Of a DNA stretch of 33,577 bases, positions 18,881-31,306 are shown in pieces. Each line of letters starts with the position of its first letter. Positions within the stretch are counted from its first letter, which is position 1. Below the pieces are notes generated by a model. It ran no database searches. It had not been told where the DNA came from and saw only the letters and a list, made by a program, of their open reading frames with translations. Where the stretch lies: positions 50,445-84,021 of the forward strand of contig JADBJK010000049.1 of assembly GCA_014874485.1 (NCBI GenBank). The letters are read 5' to 3'. Made by a program: the position numbers and the translations under genes. The DNA comes from Chloroflexota bacterium (GTDB taxonomy: Bacteria > Chloroflexota > Anaerolineae > DTLA01).

Positions 18881-19377
18881 GTAGGGACGACTCGCCGAGT
18901 CGCCCCTACAAGTTTGCCATTGTCATTCCAAGCGGCGAGGCCGCGAAGAATCTCGGCAACCGAGATGCTTCGCTCGCAATGACGTGAGAAGGCACGTGCG
19001 ACGCACCTCCGAGGTGCGTCGCACGTGGGGATTTGCTTCGCTTCGCTCGCAATGACAGTGTGGAGAAACCGCCAACCCGCGCGAATGAGCACGAATGGCA
19101 CCTTTGGCACCTTTAAATTCGTGTAGATTCGTGCGATTCGTGGATTGAACCTTCGTGCGGCGCCGAAGAATCTCGGCAACCGAGATGCTTCGCTCGCAAT
19201 GACGTGAGAAGGCACGTGCGACGCACCTCCGAGGTGCGTCGCACGTGGGGATTGCTTCGCTTCGCTCGCAATGACAGTGTGGAGAAACCGCCAACCCGCG
19301 CGAATGAGCACGAATGGCACCTTTAGCACCTTTAAATTCGTGTAGATTCGTGCGATTCGTGGATTGAACCTTCGTGC
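18881..19377. repeat. Composite palindromic repeat block (copy 2) with a 220-bp tandem duplication
   Basis: Begins with a GTAGGGACGACTCG palindrome (18881-18909) and a REP unit. Then a unit of about 215-220 bp occurs twice in tandem (18944-19163 and 19164-19377). Each contains the 35-bp CACGTGCGACGCACCTC palindrome (18993-19027; 19213-19247), a REP arm and the CACGAATGG/ATTCGTG repeat. By eye the two units differ by one single-base deletion and one G-to-A change, so the duplication is recent. With short flanks it fills the 643-bp gap between murE and the glucosidase; no gene or clear promoter is seen. Confidence 0.92.
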
Positions 19378-23572: not shown

Positions 23573-23885
23573 GTCATCCTGGACGGGGCGAAGCCTCTCG
23601 GATGCCGAGATTCTTCGCGGCTTCGCCGCTCAGAATGACAGCCTGCGAGATTGCTTCGGGCGCTGCGCGCCCTCGCAATGACACCCCTTGTGCTGTCATT
23701 GCGAGCGAAGCGAAGCAATCTCGCGCTCCGGGGATTGCTTCGGGCGCTACGCGCCCTCGCAATGACACCCCTTGTGCTGTCATTGCGAGCGAAGCGAAGC
23801 AATCCCAGGCCCTATCCGTCATGCTGGGCGAAGGTGAAGCCCCTCGGTTGGCGAGATTCTTCGCGGCTTCGGCGCTCAGGATGAC
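23573..23885. repeat. REP-like cluster mixing type A and type B units
   Basis: Four to five units: a type B unit (about 23573-23640), a type A right arm ending near 23683, one full type A unit (about 23696-23766), another A left arm (about 23778-23805), and a diverged type B unit (about 23819-23885). The arms GTCATTGCGAGCGAAGCG and CTCGCAATGAC can pair. The cluster occupies most of the 437-bp gap before ssb; open frames read through it are artefacts. Confidence 0.88.
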
Positions 23886-24748: not shown

Positions 24749-25342
24749 ATGGCAGCGATTCGGTCCTTTGTGGCAGTAGAACTCGGCGACGAGGTCAAGG
24801 GTCGCCTGGCGGAAATCCAGCGGCAACTGAAGGCCGCGGTCCCCAGCGGCAGCGTCCGGTGGGTGCAGCCGGACTCTATCCACCTGACGCTCAAGTTTCT
24901 GGGCGACGTGCCGGAGGAGCGGATTCGGGCCATCGTGGCGGCGCTGGAGCGGGAGTGCGCGCCCGTGACCCCCTTGACCTTCGCGGTGGCGGGTGCGGGC
25001 TGCTTCCCCAACGCGCGCCGGCCCAACGTGGTGTGGGTGGGCGTTGAGGATTCCACCGGCCAACTCCTGGCGCTGCAGCAGGCTGTGGAGCGCGCGCTGA
25101 ACCCGCTGGGCTACCCGCCCGAAGGCCGCCCGTTCAAGCCACACCTGACGCTGGGCCGCGCGAATCGCACTGCTTCGGGCGCGGACCTGCGCAGGGTGGG
25201 CGATCTGGTTGGCGGCCTGCACGTGGCGCAGTTGGGACAGGTGCGCGTGGCCGAGATCGTCCTCATGCGGAGCGATTTGTCGCCGGCGGGCGCGCGCTAT
25301 ACCCCGCTGGCGCACATTCCATTGGGTGGAGCAGGAACATGA
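24749..25342 (+). CDS. thpR: RNA 2',3'-cyclic phosphodiesterase (2'-5' RNA ligase family)
   Basis: 2H phosphoesterase of 197 residues that opens 2',3'-cyclic phosphate ends on RNA. Both HxT motifs are present: SIHLTLKFLG (H45, T47) and FKPHLTLGR (H132, T134). N-terminal IRSFVAVELGDEV is the usual ThpR start. No clear ribosome site exists; the ATG is 7 bases from the DUF3467 stop, so translation is likely by re-initiation. Its stop overlaps the ATG of the next gene (ATGA). One of the window's only three GTSAC words lies in it, at 24965. Confidence 0.93.
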   Translation: MAAIRSFVAVELGDEVKGRLAEIQRQLKAAVPSGSVRWVQPDSIHLTLKFLGDVPEERIRAIVAALERECAPVTPLTFAVAGAGCFPNARRPNVVWVGVEDSTGQLLALQQAVERALNPLGYPPEGRPFKPHLTLGRANRTASGADLRRVGDLVGGLHVAQLGQVRVAEIVLMRSDLSPAGARYTPLAHIPLGGAGT

Positions 25343-25809
25343 TCATCGCAGTGGTGGGGAGCGGAACGGCCTCGGACGAGTTGTGTGCGCTGGCCGAAGA
25401 GGTCGGGCGCGAGGTGGCGCGGCAAGGCGCGGTGCTCATCACCGGCGGGCTGGGCGGCGTCATGGCCGCAGCGTCGCGCGGGGCCCAGGAGGAAGGCGGC
25501 ATCACCGTGGGCATCCTGCCGGGGACCGACCCGAAGGATGCCAACCCGTGGGTGGAGATTCCCATCGCCACGGGCATGGGGCAGGCCCGCAACGTCATCA
25601 TCGTAACCGCGGCCCATGCGGTGGTCGCCGTGGGCGGGGAATACGGCACCCTATCGGAAATCGCCCACGCCCTGAAAATCGGCAAGCCGGTGATCGGCCT
25701 GCGCACCTGGGTGCTTGCCAAGGAGTTCGCGGAGCAGGACGAGAACATCATCGCCGCGTTCTCGCCGATTGAAGCGGTGAACATGGCCATCGCGCTGGCC
25801 AAGGAGTGA
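25339..25809 (+). CDS. LOG-like/SLOG-fold protein (TIGR00725 type)
   Basis: Rossmann-like nucleotide-binding protein of 156 residues. Features: IAVVGSGTAS at the start, LITGGLGGVMAAASRGA (glycine-rich loop), GITVGILPG, and GEYGTLSEIAHALKIGKPVIGL, which matches the PGGxGTxxE-type motif of lysine-decarboxylase-like/LOG proteins with GGEYGTLSE in its place. LOG enzymes cleave nucleoside monophosphates to base and ribose 5-phosphate; whether this subgroup does is uncertain. It overlaps thpR by 4 bp and precedes a phosphoribosyltransferase by 6 bp. Confidence 0.87.
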   Translation: MIIAVVGSGTASDELCALAEEVGREVARQGAVLITGGLGGVMAAASRGAQEEGGITVGILPGTDPKDANPWVEIPIATGMGQARNVIIVTAAHAVVAVGGEYGTLSEIAHALKIGKPVIGLRTWVLAKEFAEQDENIIAAFSPIEAVNMAIALAKE

Positions 25810-25815
25810 GGTCGG

Positions 25816-26505
25816 GTGTTGTACCGGGACCGCCGCCATGCCGGACAGGAAGTCGCCGCCCGGCTGCGGGACCTGAAGGGGCGGCAGGACCTCTTGGTGC
25901 TGGGCGTGCCGCGCGGCGGGGTTGTCGTCGCGCACCAGATTGCCCTGGCGCTGGGCGCTCCGCTGGACGTGTACCTCGCCCACAAACTGGGCGCACCCGG
26001 CAATCCCGAACTCGCTATCGGAGCCATCAGCGCCGACGGGCAGGTTTTCGTGGACGAAGCCCTGGCCCGCGCCGTGGGCGCAGATGACGAGTACCTGCAG
26101 GGCGAAGTGGCACACCAGAAGCGCGAGATTGAGCGGCGACTGGCGCGGTATCGCGGGCAGGCTGCCCCGAACCCCGTCAAGGACAGGGTGGTCATCCTGG
26201 TGGACGACGGCGCGGCCACCGGCGCAACCCTGCTGGCAGCCGCCAAGGCGCTGCGGCTGGCCGGGCCGCGAATGCTCATCGTGGCTGTGCCTGTGGCCTC
26301 GGTGGAGGCGGCGGAGAAACTGTCGGAAGTTGCGGACCGATTCGTGTGCCCGCTGGTGCCTGATTTCTTCTGGGCCGTCGGCGCGTTCTACGAGGACTTT
26401 GACCAGACCACCGACGAAGAGGTCATCCGCCTGCTTCACGACCCCGCATTGCCGCGGTCGCCCGCCCCGGGCCGCGAGGGGAACAGCGCCCCGAACAGCG
26501 CGTAG
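25816..26505 (+). CDS. Phosphoribosyltransferase-domain protein
   Basis: Type I phosphoribosyltransferase of 229 residues. The PRPP-binding motif is VVILVDDGAATGATL (D130-D131). Upstream blocks LLVLGVPRGGVVVAHQIALAL and DVYLAHKLGAPGNPELAIGAI are typical of the subgroup often annotated as predicted phosphoribosyltransferase. Base specificity is unknown. GTG 25816 is chosen with AAGGAG nine bases upstream; a TTG follows immediately. The last 23 codons (from about HDPALPRS) overlap the convergent membrane-protein gene on the other strand, and the tail is low-complexity, as though it runs on past the domain. Confidence 0.88.
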   Translation: MLYRDRRHAGQEVAARLRDLKGRQDLLVLGVPRGGVVVAHQIALALGAPLDVYLAHKLGAPGNPELAIGAISADGQVFVDEALARAVGADDEYLQGEVAHQKREIERRLARYRGQAAPNPVKDRVVILVDDGAATGATLLAAAKALRLAGPRMLIVAVPVASVEAAEKLSEVADRFVCPLVPDFFWAVGAFYEDFDQTTDEEVIRLLHDPALPRSPAPGREGNSAPNSA

Positions 26506-27845
26506 GCCCCGCTCCCGACCGCCCACGGGATGACGAAACCCCAGACCAGCGCGATCCCTACACCGATGGCCTGCGCGTACAGTTGCCCTTCCCATCCGGC
26601 GGCTGCGGGCGCGAGCAGCCCCGCGACGCCCGCTCCGGCGATGCCGTTCCAGCCTGCGCCGTACGCGCCGTCGGCCAGAATCGCGGGGACGAAGGCGCCG
26701 ATGAATCCCGGTACGCCCAGCGTCGGAATCAGCGCCGCCTCGTCGGACAGTCGCAGGGCCTTGTCAACCAGGTAGATGCCCACGGGCACGAGCAGCCCCG
26801 CCAGCGCGCCCACCGCCCAGCCTGCCCACACGGGCACAAATGGCGCGCCGGCCAACGTTGCCACGGCCCCGGCCACCGCCCCGCGGCCCACCATGAACAG
26901 GTCGGCGCGGCGGGCGACGAACCACGTGTAGAACCCCGCCGCGAGCATCCCGGCCAGGCCGCCCGACACGACCACCACCAGCGCGCGCGGAATCGCATTC
27001 GCGGCGGCCTGCGCCTGGGGGGCAGACGCCATCCATCCGGCCCAGCCCGCCAGCATCAGGAACACGCCGACGACGGCCACGGCAGGCTGCGCCAGAACCG
27101 GCATCTGTCCGCGGGGGGCTGGCGATTCTTTATCGGCCTTGCGCCGAAGCAGGAGCATGGCCAGGGCCAGCGCCGCCGCGAGGAGGAACGGGCCGCCCGA
27201 CCCCCCGTAGTCCACGAACCCGTGCCCCAACAGGCGCGTGTGCCCCAGGTTGGCAAGCCACCCTCCGCCCCAGACCCAGTTCCCGAATAGAGGGTACAGG
27301 AACCCGCCTGTGAGGACGGCCAGGATGTAGGCCAGGCCCGCCCGCTTGTGCGAGGCCAGCGCAAGGGCCGGCAACATGCAGACGACCAGCACCCAGGGCA
27401 AATGCGACAGAAACAGGGTCAACCCCTCCGGCGTGGACGCGCCGTTGGTGAGGAAGAACCCTCGCAGACCGGCCATCCCCCAGCCAGGCCCCCACTGGAC
27501 ATCCAAGAGCGACCATTCCCAGGAGAGGTCGCGGTACGCAGCACCGCCCAGCGCCAGGCCGATGCCCCCGAACTGGAGCGCAAAGCCTGTGGCCCAGTAG
27601 GCCAGGGCTCCCAGCCCGCCCGACAGCATGGCGACCAGGCCGGCCCGCGGCACCCGCTCGGACGGCATGCCCGCGATGGCGACGAACAGCAGCCCCACGG
27701 GCACGAGCAATGCCAGGAGCGCCGGAAGCAGCGCCGACTCCAGCGCCCCGGTTTGTGCGTCTGCCTGCCCGGCCGCCCCCGCGGGAAGCGCCACCATCCA
27801 ACTCCCCACGGCAAGGAGTGCCACGAATCCTAGACATTTGCGCAT
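26436..27845 (-). CDS. Ammonium-transporter-like (Amt/Rh fold) membrane protein lacking twin histidines
   Basis: 469 residues: a signal peptide (MRKCLGFVALLAVGSWMVALPAGAAG) and about eleven membrane helices. Amt-like landmarks are FGNWVWGGGWLANLG (Amt: AHWVWG-GGWL), a following FVDYGGSGGPFLLAA where Amt has DFAGGTVVH, and PVWAGWAVGALAGLLVPVGIYLVDK with SDEAALIPTLGVPGFIGAF where Amt has DDPxGAxxVHGxxG. Both pore histidines of AmtB (H168 and H318) seem replaced, so ammonium conduction is doubtful; it might transport something else or act as a sensor. The start at 27845 follows GAGGG; an upstream ATG (27878) is less likely. It converges on the phosphoribosyltransferase gene with 70 bp overlap. 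Confidence 0.78.
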   Translation of the reverse strand: MRKCLGFVALLAVGSWMVALPAGAAGQADAQTGALESALLPALLALLVPVGLLFVAIAGMPSERVPRAGLVAMLSGGLGALAYWATGFALQFGGIGLALGGAAYRDLSWEWSLLDVQWGPGWGMAGLRGFFLTNGASTPEGLTLFLSHLPWVLVVCMLPALALASHKRAGLAYILAVLTGGFLYPLFGNWVWGGGWLANLGHTRLLGHGFVDYGGSGGPFLLAAALALAMLLLRRKADKESPAPRGQMPVLAQPAVAVVGVFLMLAGWAGWMASAPQAQAAANAIPRALVVVVSGGLAGMLAAGFYTWFVARRADLFMVGRGAVAGAVATLAGAPFVPVWAGWAVGALAGLLVPVGIYLVDKALRLSDEAALIPTLGVPGFIGAFVPAILADGAYGAGWNGIAGAGVAGLLAPAAAGWEGQLYAQAIGVGIALVWGFVIPWAVGSGAYALFGALFPSRPGAGDRGNAGS

Positions 27846-27895
27846 CTGCCTGCCCTCACACTCCGAATTACGCCGCATCTGGCCGGCATATCAAC

Positions 27896-27960: not shown

Positions 27961-28305
27961 CTGGAATCCATAGACCTGGCCCGACTGATTGTGGATGCCG
28001 TCGCCGACAAACAAGGCGAAGACATCCTCCTGCTGGACATCAAGTCCATCTCCCTGATCACGGACTATTTCGTGATCACCTCGGCCGACACCGACCGACA
28101 AATCCAGGCCATCGCCGACGAAGTGGCGATCCGAGCCAAACAGAACGGCATCCTGCCCCTGCACGTTGAAGGTGAGGCGGAGTCAGGATGGGTGCTGCTG
28201 GATTTTGGCGGCGTTATCGTGCACCTGTTCTCGCCGGAGAAGCGGGCCTACTACGCGCTTGAAGACTTCTGGAAGCGCGCCGCTATGGTGTTGCGCATGC
28301 CCTAG
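27961..28305 (+). CDS. rsfS: Ribosome silencing factor RsfS, probable CTG start
   Basis: Binds uL14 on the large ribosomal subunit and blocks subunit joining when nutrients are short. The domain is seen in DKQGEDILLLDIKSISLITDYFVITSA, DRQIQAIADEV, and EGEAESGWVLLDFGGVIVHLFSPEKRAYYALEDFW. The first ATG/GTG/TTG codon is GTG at 27991, which would cut off the conserved helix IDLARLIVDAVADK. The ribosome site AAAGGAG (27946-27952) points instead to CTG 27961, eight bases downstream, giving 114 residues with a family-like N-terminus. An in-frame stop at 27940 rules out a start further upstream. RsfS often sits with nadD; here it stands alone, followed by tandem repeats. Confidence 0.88.
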   Translation: MESIDLARLIVDAVADKQGEDILLLDIKSISLITDYFVITSADTDRQIQAIADEVAIRAKQNGILPLHVEGEAESGWVLLDFGGVIVHLFSPEKRAYYALEDFWKRAAMVLRMP

Positions 28306-28333
28306 CACTTGACCGCAGGGGAAGGTGTGCACT

Positions 28334-28565
28334 GTCATTGCGAGCGAAGCGAAGCAATCCCTGACCGCGGAGATTGCTTCGGGCGCTACGCGCCCTCGCA
28401 ATGACCCCCCGTTGTCATTGCGAGCGGAGCGAAGCAATCCCTGACCGCGGAGATTGCTTCGGGCGCTACGCGCCCTCGCAATGACCCCCCGTTGTCATTG
28501 CGAGCGGAGCGAAGCAATCCCTGACCGCGGAGATTGCTTCGGGCGCTACGCGCCCTCGCAATGAC
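28334..28565. repeat. Three tandem 80-bp REP type A units
   Basis: Units start at 28334, 28414 and 28494 with an exact 80-base period; the third ends at 28565 after its CTCGCAATGAC arm. Units 2 and 3 appear identical and unit 1 differs by one base (GAGCGAAGC versus GAGCGGAGC). Each unit can fold: GTCATTGCGAG pairs with CTCGCAATGAC, and GAAGCAATC with GATTGCTTC. This fills the 300-bp gap between rsfS and ndk, with no gene and no separate terminator seen. Confidence 0.93.
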
Positions 28566-29079: not shown

Positions 29080-31080
29080 TTAGTGTTGCTGCTTCACAAG
29101 TTCCAAAGCGCGCCTGTAGGCTTCCAGAGCCTTTTGCAGGCGCTCCTGCTTCATGCACAGGTCGCCGATGAGGGTATATGTGCGCGCCTGGGCCAGCGGG
29201 CCGGTTGCGCCACTCTCCAGGTCGGCGAGCACTTTGTCCAGCAGTACCCCTTTCCGTATGAGTTGCTCGTACAAGTCCAGCGCGCCGCCGACGTCTCCGC
29301 TGTCGCGGCGCTCGCGGGCCTGGGCCAGCACCTGCTCGGGCGAGAGTTCCTCCGCGACGGCAGGAGCCGGTGCCTCGGCGGGCGCGGCCTCCTCTGCGGC
29401 GGGGGCTTCGGCGACGGCCTCGGCGGGCGCGGCCTCCTCTGCGGCGGGGACTTCGGCGACGGCTTCGGTAGGCGCGGCCTCCTCTGCGGCGGGGGCTTCG
29501 GCTTCGGCTACAGCCTCCGGTGCGGCTTCTGCCACCGGTGCAGCCTCCTCTGCGGCGGGGGCTTCCAACGGGGTTTCGGCCAGGCGCGCGGCTTCGGCCA
29601 GCAGCGCCTCCAGGTCTATGACGGTGGGCCCGGCCTCTTCCGGCGCGGCCTCTGCCACCGGTGGGGCTTCGGCCTCGGCGGCCGCTTCCTCCGGGGCTTC
29701 GCCTGTAATCCCCGCAAGGAGCGCCTCAAGTTCCACCTCGGTGGGCTCGGCCTCTTCCAGCGCGGCCTCTGCCACTGGCCCGGCCTCCTCCACGGGCGCG
29801 ACCAGCCACTCGGGTAGCGGCTCCGGCGGGGCTTCCGCCGGCGCGGGGGCTTCTTCGGTCTCGGCCTGCGCCTCCAACTGCTTCAGCCAGTCGGGGATGC
29901 CTTCTCCGGCGACTGCTTCCGTCGGTTCCTCGGCGAGCGGCAACTCCTCGGTTGCTTCCTCGGCAGCCGGCGGTTCGGCCACGCCCTGCTCCTGACGCAA
30001 ACGCGCCAGCCAGTCGGGCACTTCCTCGGCTTCCTCGGCCGGGGCCGCGGGCTGTGCTGCCTCCTCCTTCTGTCGCTCGCGGATGCGCCGCAGCCAGTCG
30101 GGGATGCCTTCCTCAGCCTCCTCGCCCGCCACGGGCAACCCGGCCGCGACCGCAGCTGCTGCCTCAGTCTCCGGTTCCGCGGGTGCGCCGGTCTCGGCTT
30201 CGCCTTCGCGCAGGGGTTCCAGCGGCGCGCCCTTCAGCCAGTCGGCCAGCGCCTCTGCCGGAATCTCCTCTTCGGTGATCACGACTTCGGGCGCGGGAGC
30301 GGGTGCGGGCATCTCCTCGGGCGGGATGATTTTGACCACCCGCGCGGGCAGAGGAGACCGGTCGCCGAACAGTTTCTGCGCGACCGTGTTTTCGGGGTCT
30401 ATGTCCTGGGCCAGTTGGAGCAGCATCCGGCCTTCGCTCTCGCGCTCGCCGCGCAGGTTGATTTCGCCCAGGATGAGGTTGGCCTTCAGGCAATGAGGGT
30501 ACTCGGCCAGAATCTCCTCGCAAACCCGGACGGCCTCCTTGCGCTGGTCTGAATGCCACAGAGCCTCGGCCAGGGCGACTTTGATATCCACCAGGTTGGG
30601 GTCTTGCCCCAGGAGGGTGCGGTACTCCTGGATGGCCTGGAGCCACAGGCCGCTGCGGGCGTAGAGCCGCGCCACCGCCGCCGACGTGAGTTTTAGGCGG
30701 GGCCGCGCGACGCCCTCCCGCTGTGCGTACAGGCGCTGCAACTCCTTGCGGAGTTCCGCATTCCCAGGGGCCAGTTCATAGGCACGTTCCAAGTGCCAGA
30801 TGGCGAGGTCCAGGTTCCCCTGCTTCTCGTGGGCCACGGCAATGCCCACCCGCGAGAACAGGTCTTCCGGGTCGCAGGCCAGCGCGCGGGCGAAAAGCCC
30901 ATGCGCTTCCCTGTAGTTCCCTTTCTCCAAACAGGCTTCGCCCAGGATGCGATAGGTCTGGAGGTGTTTGGGATACACGCGCAACACATGCCGACCCATG
31001 GCGATCGCCTGGTCGTACAGGCCCTCGCCCACCAGTCGGCGCATCTCTTCGCCATAGGATTGCAGACTAACCTCTGGCAT
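29080..31080 (-). CDS. TPR protein with repeated PDWL motifs in an Ala/Glu/Pro-rich region
   Basis: 666 residues, no signal peptide or membrane helix. An N-terminal TPR array covers about residues 8-235 (e.g. LGEACLEKGNYREAHGLFARAL, KQGNLDLAIWHLERAYELAP). Residues 255-580 are acidic and Ala/Pro-rich, with five spaced tryptophan motifs: ADWL (279-282), PDWL (327-330, 355-358, 396-399) and PEWL (423-426). Two copies of LEALLA (451-456, 490-495) and a 15-residue tandem repeat (EAVAEAPAAEEAAPA type) follow. A second TPR-like segment ends the protein (about 580-666, ALEAYRRALELVK). Probably a scaffold; partners unknown. The start at 31080 follows GGGAGGT. Confidence 0.9.
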   Translation of the reverse strand: MPEVSLQSYGEEMRRLVGEGLYDQAIAMGRHVLRVYPKHLQTYRILGEACLEKGNYREAHGLFARALACDPEDLFSRVGIAVAHEKQGNLDLAIWHLERAYELAPGNAELRKELQRLYAQREGVARPRLKLTSAAVARLYARSGLWLQAIQEYRTLLGQDPNLVDIKVALAEALWHSDQRKEAVRVCEEILAEYPHCLKANLILGEINLRGERESEGRMLLQLAQDIDPENTVAQKLFGDRSPLPARVVKIIPPEEMPAPAPAPEVVITEEEIPAEALADWLKGAPLEPLREGEAETGAPAEPETEAAAAVAAGLPVAGEEAEEGIPDWLRRIRERQKEEAAQPAAPAEEAEEVPDWLARLRQEQGVAEPPAAEEATEELPLAEEPTEAVAGEGIPDWLKQLEAQAETEEAPAPAEAPPEPLPEWLVAPVEEAGPVAEAALEEAEPTEVELEALLAGITGEAPEEAAAEAEAPPVAEAAPEEAGPTVIDLEALLAEAARLAETPLEAPAAEEAAPVAEAAPEAVAEAEAPAAEEAAPTEAVAEVPAAEEAAPAEAVAEAPAAEEAAPAEAPAPAVAEELSPEQVLAQARERRDSGDVGGALDLYEQLIRKGVLLDKVLADLESGATGPLAQARTYTLIGDLCMKQERLQKALEAYRRALELVKQQH
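29381..29515. repeat. Three in-frame 45-bp tandem repeats inside the TPR gene
   Basis: Copies begin at 29381, 29426 and 29471, each starting GGCGCGGCCTCCTCTGCGGC on the plus strand, and encode the 15-residue Ala/Glu/Pro repeats near residues 523-568. The few differences suggest recent in-frame expansion. Confidence 0.85.
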
Positions 31081-31114
31081 CGCGCTACCTCCCTTCGTTC
31101 TCGCTGCCCGCCCT

Positions 31115-31143
31115 ATTATGCGGCCCTTTGGGCGAAAAGTCAA
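31115..31143 (-). promoter_or_regulatory. Promoter of the TPR-ndk unit
   Basis: On the minus strand: TTGACT (31138-31143), a 17-base spacer and CATAAT (31115-31120), 34 bases before the TPR gene start. Confidence 0.7.
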
Positions 31144-31221
31144 CCGGCCGAGGGCGATGGGCGCATTTCCATTCTGGGGCGAGAATGACCGAATGTCGTT
31201 AGGTTGTCGCGCAGAATCTTG

Positions 31222-31306
31222 CCTCACCTATCCCCACCGCCGGCCTTCCCCTTCCCTCTGCGCCCGCAGAGAGGAGAGGGGAGGGTGTGGGAGGGGTTAG
31301 GTGAGG
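31222..31306. repeat. 85-bp inverted repeat with CCTCACCTA/TAGGTGAGG ends
   Basis: The ends CCTCACCTA (31222-31230) and TAGGTGAGG (31298-31306) are perfect complements. The interior is purine- and pyrimidine-biased on opposite arms, with CTCTGCG/CGCAGAG at the centre. It is distinct from the REP families and single-copy in this window. Confidence 0.75.

Follow-up and report, generated by a model that had tools for sequence, protein, structure and literature searches.

Two pore histidines, the twin-His motif, are held to be near-universal in the Amt/Mep/Rh family. The accessible text of one study states that both are conserved (PMC3647058), and that of another, from 2020, gives a glutamate at the first histidine of fungal Mep proteins as the only natural variation (PMC7447429); this glutamate occurs in Mep1 and Mep3, according to the available parts of PMC9040831 and PMC3647058. 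Here we analyse a predicted Amt-fold membrane protein encoded in a stretch of 33,577 nucleotides (hereafter the window) from a Chloroflexota bacterium of the class Anaerolineae (assembly GCA_014874485.1, contig JADBJK010000049.1, positions 50,445 to 84,021), in which both histidines have been replaced. The protein belongs to a clade that has lost the motif several times. Such a bacterial clade appears to be new; in a literature search, with most subscription papers and preprints outside its reach, none lacking the twin-His motif was found described.

RhD and RhCE have the Amt/Rh fold, lack the twin histidines and are not known to transport ammonium. They are animal proteins found in mixed trimers with RhAG. 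A second Amt-family gene that could supply a mixed trimer is missing from the two sister genomes of the window's genus (G001 and G002); the window's own genome (G000) has one, on a contig that is probably contamination (see below). The RhAG-RhCE complex (7uzq, chain Q) matches the model of the window protein with a Z value of 34.7, much farther than the Amts do.

In fungal Mep1 and Mep3 one histidine, the first, has been replaced by an acidic residue, whereas the window protein has lost both, and its replacements are hydrophobic. The sensor kinase Ks-Amt5 (6eu6) shares the Amt fold with our model (Z 43.3), and its Amt module has been taken off transport duty. As far as the accessible text of PMC10433425 goes, however, Ks-Amt5 keeps the binding site, the Phe gate and the twin histidines next to its fused kinase; gate, histidines and kinase are all absent from the window protein.

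The nearest relatives outside the clade, among the best 80 matches of a scan of named genomes, form a subfamily from Geobacter, Gemmatimonadetes, Ignavibacteria, Omnitrophota and others (within L168-L203) that is 28-31% identical to the window protein. The two have GNWxWGGGWLA-like and GHGxVDFAG blocks in common. They differ in that every subfamily member read has its own twin histidines and a complete Phe gate, with a P-II motif beside 19 of 29 loci. Signatures like GHGHVDFAGSSVVH recur in this subfamily; P-II is a frequent neighbour of its genes, and a second Amt gene an occasional one.

Pore residues and predicted fold of the window protein

The gene (Table 1) encodes 469 residues from the methionine at 27845, the likely start, although the longest open reading frame (ORF) could begin at 27878. 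The Amt fold begins near residue 29. The product scores 102.4 bits against PF00909 (cut-off 23.2) but only 92.7 bits against TIGR00836, the canonical ammonium transporter subfamily, for which the cut-off is 343.3. A PHROGs search returned a single match, to a family of unknown function. The ratio of nonsynonymous to synonymous substitution rates (dN/dS) among the window gene and its two relatives in the genus is 0.22-0.25, and the pore residues are identical in those two genomes. The gene is therefore conserved and under purifying selection, being neither a sequencing error nor a decaying copy.

The earlier note on this DNA, made from the letters alone, had proposed an Amt/Rh fold, and structure prediction agrees. 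An AlphaFold2 monomer model, for which the window protein was aligned to 67 relatives, reached a mean predicted local distance difference test score (pLDDT) of 89.7 and a predicted template modelling score (pTM) of 0.89. Its Foldseek and VIA matches were Amt/Mep/Rh proteins, which held all the top places. The best was Sd-Amt1 (8qj3_A; Z 44.0 over 367 residues), followed by Archaeoglobus fulgidus Amt1 (43.6), AmtB (42.2) and Rh50 (about 36). The next fold, that of urea transporters, lay far below with a Z of 12.9. The protein is thus predicted to have the full Amt fold over its membrane domain.

The same note had read both pore histidines as lost. Alignment to AmtB (translated from NC_000913) confirms this, with Phe220 and Leu376 in the H168 and H318 columns, and in pairwise alignments to chains from the Protein Data Bank (PDB) the window's DYGGSGGPF falls on DFAGGTVVH and its TLGVPG on VHGxxG. 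Judged by these alignments, the change of the pore reaches far past the twin histidines. Both Phe-gate residues, F107 and F215, are tryptophan, and the ammonium-binding S1 site (F107, W148 and S219) reads W, W, A, so that W148 alone is kept. N216 has become methionine, while D310, like W148, is retained. Five AmtB residues hydrogen-bond the substrate in simulations, according to the accessible text of PMC3647058 (H168, H318, Y32, S263 and I110); the window protein has F, L, A, R and V in these columns.

The likeness to canonical Amt/AmtB proteins therefore covers the predicted fold over residues 29-452 (Z 42-44), the aspartates of the D160 and D310 columns and the PF00909 score. Against them, the window protein is without the twin histidines, the Phe gate, S219, N216, Y32/I110/S263, the arginine of the C-terminal tail (phenylalanine here) and a P-II neighbour.

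The clade in Chloroflexota and its repeated histidine losses

When 396 genomes of the class were searched, at least 271 gave matches at an E value of 0.001 or better, canonical Amts included. From these we assembled a clade set of 150 proteins, comprising the window protein, 110 better-scoring loci (L004-L113; with the window protein, the first set of 111) and 39 weaker-scoring loci from the same list (the later set); all counts below hold among the matches listed. The outgroup of 44 was made up of canonical Chloroflexota Amts, the histidine-keeping subfamily described above and a few canonical Amts found beside the latter.

Both histidines are absent in 102 of the 150 proteins (69/111 and 33/39) and one in 15 (14/111 and 1/39), while 30 (28/111 and 2/39) retain both (HH) and three are incomplete; the weaker-scoring set is thus the poorer in HH proteins. 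The outgroup is uniform, with F107, F215, N216, S219, H168 and H318 each present in 44/44 and no arginine in the S263 column (0/44). In the clade this arginine occurs in 103/111 and 37/39 proteins. The Phe gate is nearly gone, phenylalanine being found in 1/111 proteins at the F107 column and 2/111 at F215, mostly with tryptophan or leucine instead; asparagine at N216 is missing altogether (0/111) and serine at S219 persists in 10/111. The conserved arginine of the C-terminal tail falls from 44/44 in the outgroup to 32/111. Aspartate at D160 is retained in 148/150 proteins, D310 is kept, W148 remains tryptophan in 71/111, and other columns are strongly conserved across the 111.

In the 69 first-set proteins that have neither histidine, 20 different residue pairs occupy the two sites. 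The first site is phenylalanine or tyrosine in 56 of them, although most columns flanking it hold few aromatics, and a charged residue is found at either site in none of the 111 proteins. The preference for Phe or Tyr suggests constrained replacement and not random decay. On a single fold the members form a natural series, from HH through HS, NH and QH to FF, FL and YG. A variant was also seen at the usually fixed W148 column, where 22 of the 69 have glutamine. Examples from the Caldilineaceae are L125, L129 and L154 (NWVQGGGW), with phenylalanine at the first histidine site and a small residue at the second.

Many of the families in the class have members of the clade. Each of the 51 named clade loci that fell within the best 80 matches of the contig scan carries the title of a Chloroflexota group (such as Caldilineaceae, Anaerolineae, Thermoflexales or Ardenticatenia), and a sample of 301 genomes of the phylum added two members from outside the class (L219 and L220, in genomes G409 and G405), which share the pore-exit arginine and the changed gate. 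As far as seen, the clade is confined to Chloroflexota.

Two trees, of 114 and 31 rows, were built with the pore columns and their neighbours removed. Rows more than 80% identical (L004-L006 excepted) and gap-rich rows were left out of the first; the second was thinned at 56% identity and omitted L102, which has a long branch. The clade is monophyletic in both, with a Shimodaira-Hasegawa-like approximate likelihood ratio test (SH-aLRT) value of 100 in the larger tree and support of 100/100 in the smaller. The window protein belongs to it by every mark, namely Arg321, Trp151, Trp271 and the supported branch (100/100), while its own place within the clade is not resolved in the 31-row tree.

Forcing the 16 histidine-less rows of the 31-row tree together cost 83.5 log-likelihood units (approximately unbiased test, p-AU 1e-5). 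At least three changes at each histidine site were required in 1000/1000 bootstrap trees of that set. The changes needed at the first and second sites numbered 12 and 8 on the 114-row tree, and 5 and 5 on the 31-row tree. A single loss is therefore rejected, and the histidines were lost several times inside the clade. The earlier idea that the loss itself might define a conserved clade has to be recast: the clade is real, and its marks are the changed gate and the arginine, with the histidines lost repeatedly within it. Since the outgroup is entirely HH, and since all 28 first-set clade proteins of the HH type combine the arginine with a changed Phe gate, the simplest order probably places gate and arginine first and the loss of the histidines later.

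The idea that histidine-less copies go together with a canonical Amt in the same genome found no support (HH proteins, 10 with and 17 without; proteins with neither histidine, 27 and 42; Fisher p 1.0), the C59 protein being left out; a tree-aware version of this test had no power.

A gene on contig C59 of the window's assembly (L213), HH in type and with SLOG and phosphoribosyltransferase neighbours resembling those in the window, was considered as a twin-His paralogue and rejected. Over 14.7 kb, short gaps aside, C59 is collinear at 84-92% with a genome of another family (G018), its G+C of 0.576 is lower than that of the window (0.647), and the gene is absent from the two sister genomes. We therefore set it aside as evidence; C59 is likely a contamination of the assembly, the alternative being wholesale transfer. 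Its protein counts as one HH protein (L006) in the sets of 111 and 150.

What the clade protein may do

Transport of ammonium by the known mechanism is unlikely, because the equivalent changes inactivate AmtB and all of them occur together here. In the accessible text of PMC10433425, replacing F215 with H, E, S or W abolished transport, and in that of PMC7447429 transport was absent from H168A/H318A and no current was recorded from S219A/H168A/H318A. The window protein carries natural changes at F215, H168, H318 and S219 at once. We favour, tentatively and at somewhat under even confidence, a channel or transporter that has kept the Amt fold but passes some other solute than ammonium, its filter rebuilt in a Chloroflexota ancestor. 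The earlier suggestion of a possible transporter for a different substrate fits the evidence best.

In the course of events that we infer, the clade ancestor would have exchanged the Phe gate for tryptophan or leucine and placed an arginine at the cytoplasmic exit. Once binding and deprotonation of NH4+ had gone out of use, the twin histidines would have become dispensable, to be replaced several times, mostly by phenylalanine or tyrosine at the first site. The resulting pore would be dry, narrow and lined with aromatics, with one positive charge at its inner mouth. Such a pore should keep NH4+ and K+ out and would be suited to a weak-acid species or a small uncharged solute. The latter would best fit a pore that is predicted to be dry and aromatic, bears the exit arginine and has been kept by selection.

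Several observations weigh against this reading. The AmtB mutants cited gain no new substrate, so that a non-conducting protein would be equally compatible with the mutant data. The HH members (30/150) may still carry ammonium, and with W148 kept in 71/111 the ammonium site has survived in one part, to some extent. Aromatic residues are also common at the nearby column 213 (41/69), so that the aromatic preference at 220 is no more than suggestive. Finally, no operon partner was found among the recurrent neighbours, which are convergent or divergent except for 2 of 28 TMEM260-like genes.

The nitrogen context bears on the alternatives. The clade gene is the only PF00909 gene in G001 and G002, the second hit of G000 being the one on the probable contaminant contig, and glutamine synthetase was found in all three genomes. 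Of the 396 genomes searched, 114 gave no PF00909 match, so an Amt is apparently not needed to obtain ammonium. Among 40 genomes picked by hand for their lack of a canonical Amt, the genus three included, 30 had no P-II match and 10 a weak one (at best 31.6 bits). In 15 hand-picked genomes with a canonical Amt it was found at 72-103 bits in eight, and beside the canonical Amt in seven. The window's genome has one weak match of 31.6 bits, on another contig than the Amt gene. Proteins of this kind, at about 31 bits to PF00543, occur away from the Amt gene in all three (G000:C79:44012-44305, G001:C42:1468-1761 and G002:C81:1478-1768), and perhaps represent a P-II-like family of other function.

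Beside clade loci, a purpose-made pattern of limited sensitivity detected the P-II motif in 0/110 and 0/51 cases, against 19/29 in the outgroup. It also gave 0/10 beside canonical Chloroflexota Amts (L114-L123, with short flanks), so that either the pattern misses some genes or P-II is often unlinked. No recognisable fused signalling domain was seen in the 110 clade proteins, on inspection by eye of the tail lengths and of six of the tails. The median C-terminal tail is 53 residues long, the longest (260) being of low complexity by eye, and the window protein ends about 17 residues past the aligned Amt fold, with no such domain. The sensor role offered in the earlier note as a second possibility is weakened by these two absences, and the GlnK association that it named as a thing to look for was not found beside the 110 and 51 loci.

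A protein that still conducts ammonia or ammonium without the twin histidines or the Phe gate, for instance as a plain pore for NH3 or a channel that leaks NH4+, seems rather unlikely to us. The clear Amt homology and predicted fold speak for it, as do the retention of D160 (148/150) and W148 (71/111) and, with the contaminant hit set aside, the position of the gene as the sole Amt-family gene of a genus whose three genomes all have glutamine synthetase. The activity of AmtB F107A and of single histidine mutants on ammonium (accessible parts of PMC10433425 and PMC3647058) points the same way. F215W, the loss of both histidines and S219A are inactivating in AmtB, however, singly or together, as far as the sources cited above can be drawn on; P-II of the usual strength was found in none of the 40 genomes picked for want of a canonical Amt, and the 114 genomes without a PF00909 match apparently manage without one.

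We also think it unlikely, and somewhat more so, that the protein conducts nothing, its Amt fold having taken on the role of a structural subunit or a receptor, like that of RhD and RhCE or of Ks-Amt5. The pore-critical residues are gone, and Ks-Amt5 is an Amt module that became a receptor and lost transport (PMC5764959, in its accessible part). Set against this are the tails without a recognisable signalling domain, the contrast in P-II motifs between clade and outgroup loci, and perhaps the sister genomes, in which a second Amt for a mixed trimer is lacking. A leak of K+ or NH4+, as in twin-His mutants of AmtB and Mep2, is improbable. Single histidine-to-alanine mutants of AmtB (PMC7447429) and twin-His variants of Mep2 (PMC9040831) pass K+, but the AmtB double alanine mutant gave no K+ current (PMC7447429) and the authors tie the leak to a lower hydrophobicity of the pore (PMC9040831), all according to the accessible text of these papers; the window replacements are hydrophobic, both sites are free of charged residues in all 111 proteins, and an arginine stands at the exit. 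Loss of the histidines through gene decay, to which the variety of residue pairs at the two sites might point, is very improbable and strongly disfavoured by the dN/dS values, the full-length open frame, the conservation of the other columns and the spread over many families of the class.

The clade lets one ask if a substrate other than ammonium can be handled by the Amt fold. Its natural variants, intermediates among them, can be used to test the roles of the histidines and the Phe gate. PF00909 would annotate these genes as ammonium transporters, and reconstructions of nitrogen uptake in Chloroflexota that rely on it may be wrong.

Neighbouring genes and repeats

The features of the locus are collected in Table 1. 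Where found among the 110 clade loci, LigT (57/57), phosphoribosyltransferase (24/24) and SLOG (23/23) genes are always convergent with the Amt gene; the LigT count, at least 57 of 110, is a lower bound, since L007-L033 have only about 1.5 kb of flank. Mut7-C RNase genes are divergent at 36 of the 36 loci where found, and TMEM260-like genes lie upstream at 28 loci, on the opposite strand in 26. The neighbourhood reflects synteny and not co-transcription: the chromosomal site is partly conserved and the Amt gene stands alone.

Table 1. Features of the Amt locus (window coordinates) and the basis of each assignment
Feature	Position	Strand	Basis and remarks
Amt-fold membrane protein gene (fold predicted)	26436..27845	-	469 aa, stop codon included; ORF list, PF00909, AlphaFold2, Z 44.0 to 8qj3_A
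Signal-peptide-like N-terminus	27768..27845	-	residues 1-26, boundary by eye; helix 2-23 at low pLDDT
Trp151, AmtB F107 column, outer Phe-gate residue	27393..27395	-	alignment; outgroup F 44/44
Asp212, AmtB D160 column, kept	27210..27212	-	D in 109/111 clade proteins, then 39/39
Phe220, AmtB H168 column, first pore histidine, lost	27186..27188	-	alignment
Trp271, AmtB F215 column, inner Phe-gate residue	27033..27035	-	alignment
Ala275, AmtB S219 column, ammonium-binding S1 site	27021..27023	-	alignment
Arg321, AmtB S263 column, cytoplasmic pore exit	26883..26885	-	clade-specific Arg: 103/111, then 37/39; outgroup 0/44
Leu376, AmtB H318 column, second pore histidine, lost	26718..26720	-	alignment
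Phosphoribosyltransferase-domain gene	25816..26505	+	convergent; PF00156; 3' end overlaps Amt gene by 70 bases
SLOG / TIGR00725 gene	25339..25809	+	convergent
LigT / RNA 2',3'-cyclic phosphodiesterase gene	24749..25342	+	convergent; TIGR02258
Ribosome silencing factor RsfS	27964..28305	+	divergent from Amt gene; TIGR00090; start codon not settled

An Rfam scan of the window gave zero matches. Near-identical repeat units with the motif TCATTGCGAGCGAAGCGAAGCAATC or its like occur at 28333-28565, 23649-23804 and 18944-19377, in arrays of an 80-base unit (2.9 copies), an 84-base unit (1.9) and a 219-base unit (2.0), and bases 1-185 hold a related-looking unit of 73 bases. The TCATTGCGAGCGAAGCGAAGCAATC arrays look like a multiplying intergenic repeat. 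A tetratricopeptide repeat (TPR) protein of 715 residues is encoded at 29083-31227 (- strand), with a 45-base repeat array within its ORF at 29372-29502.

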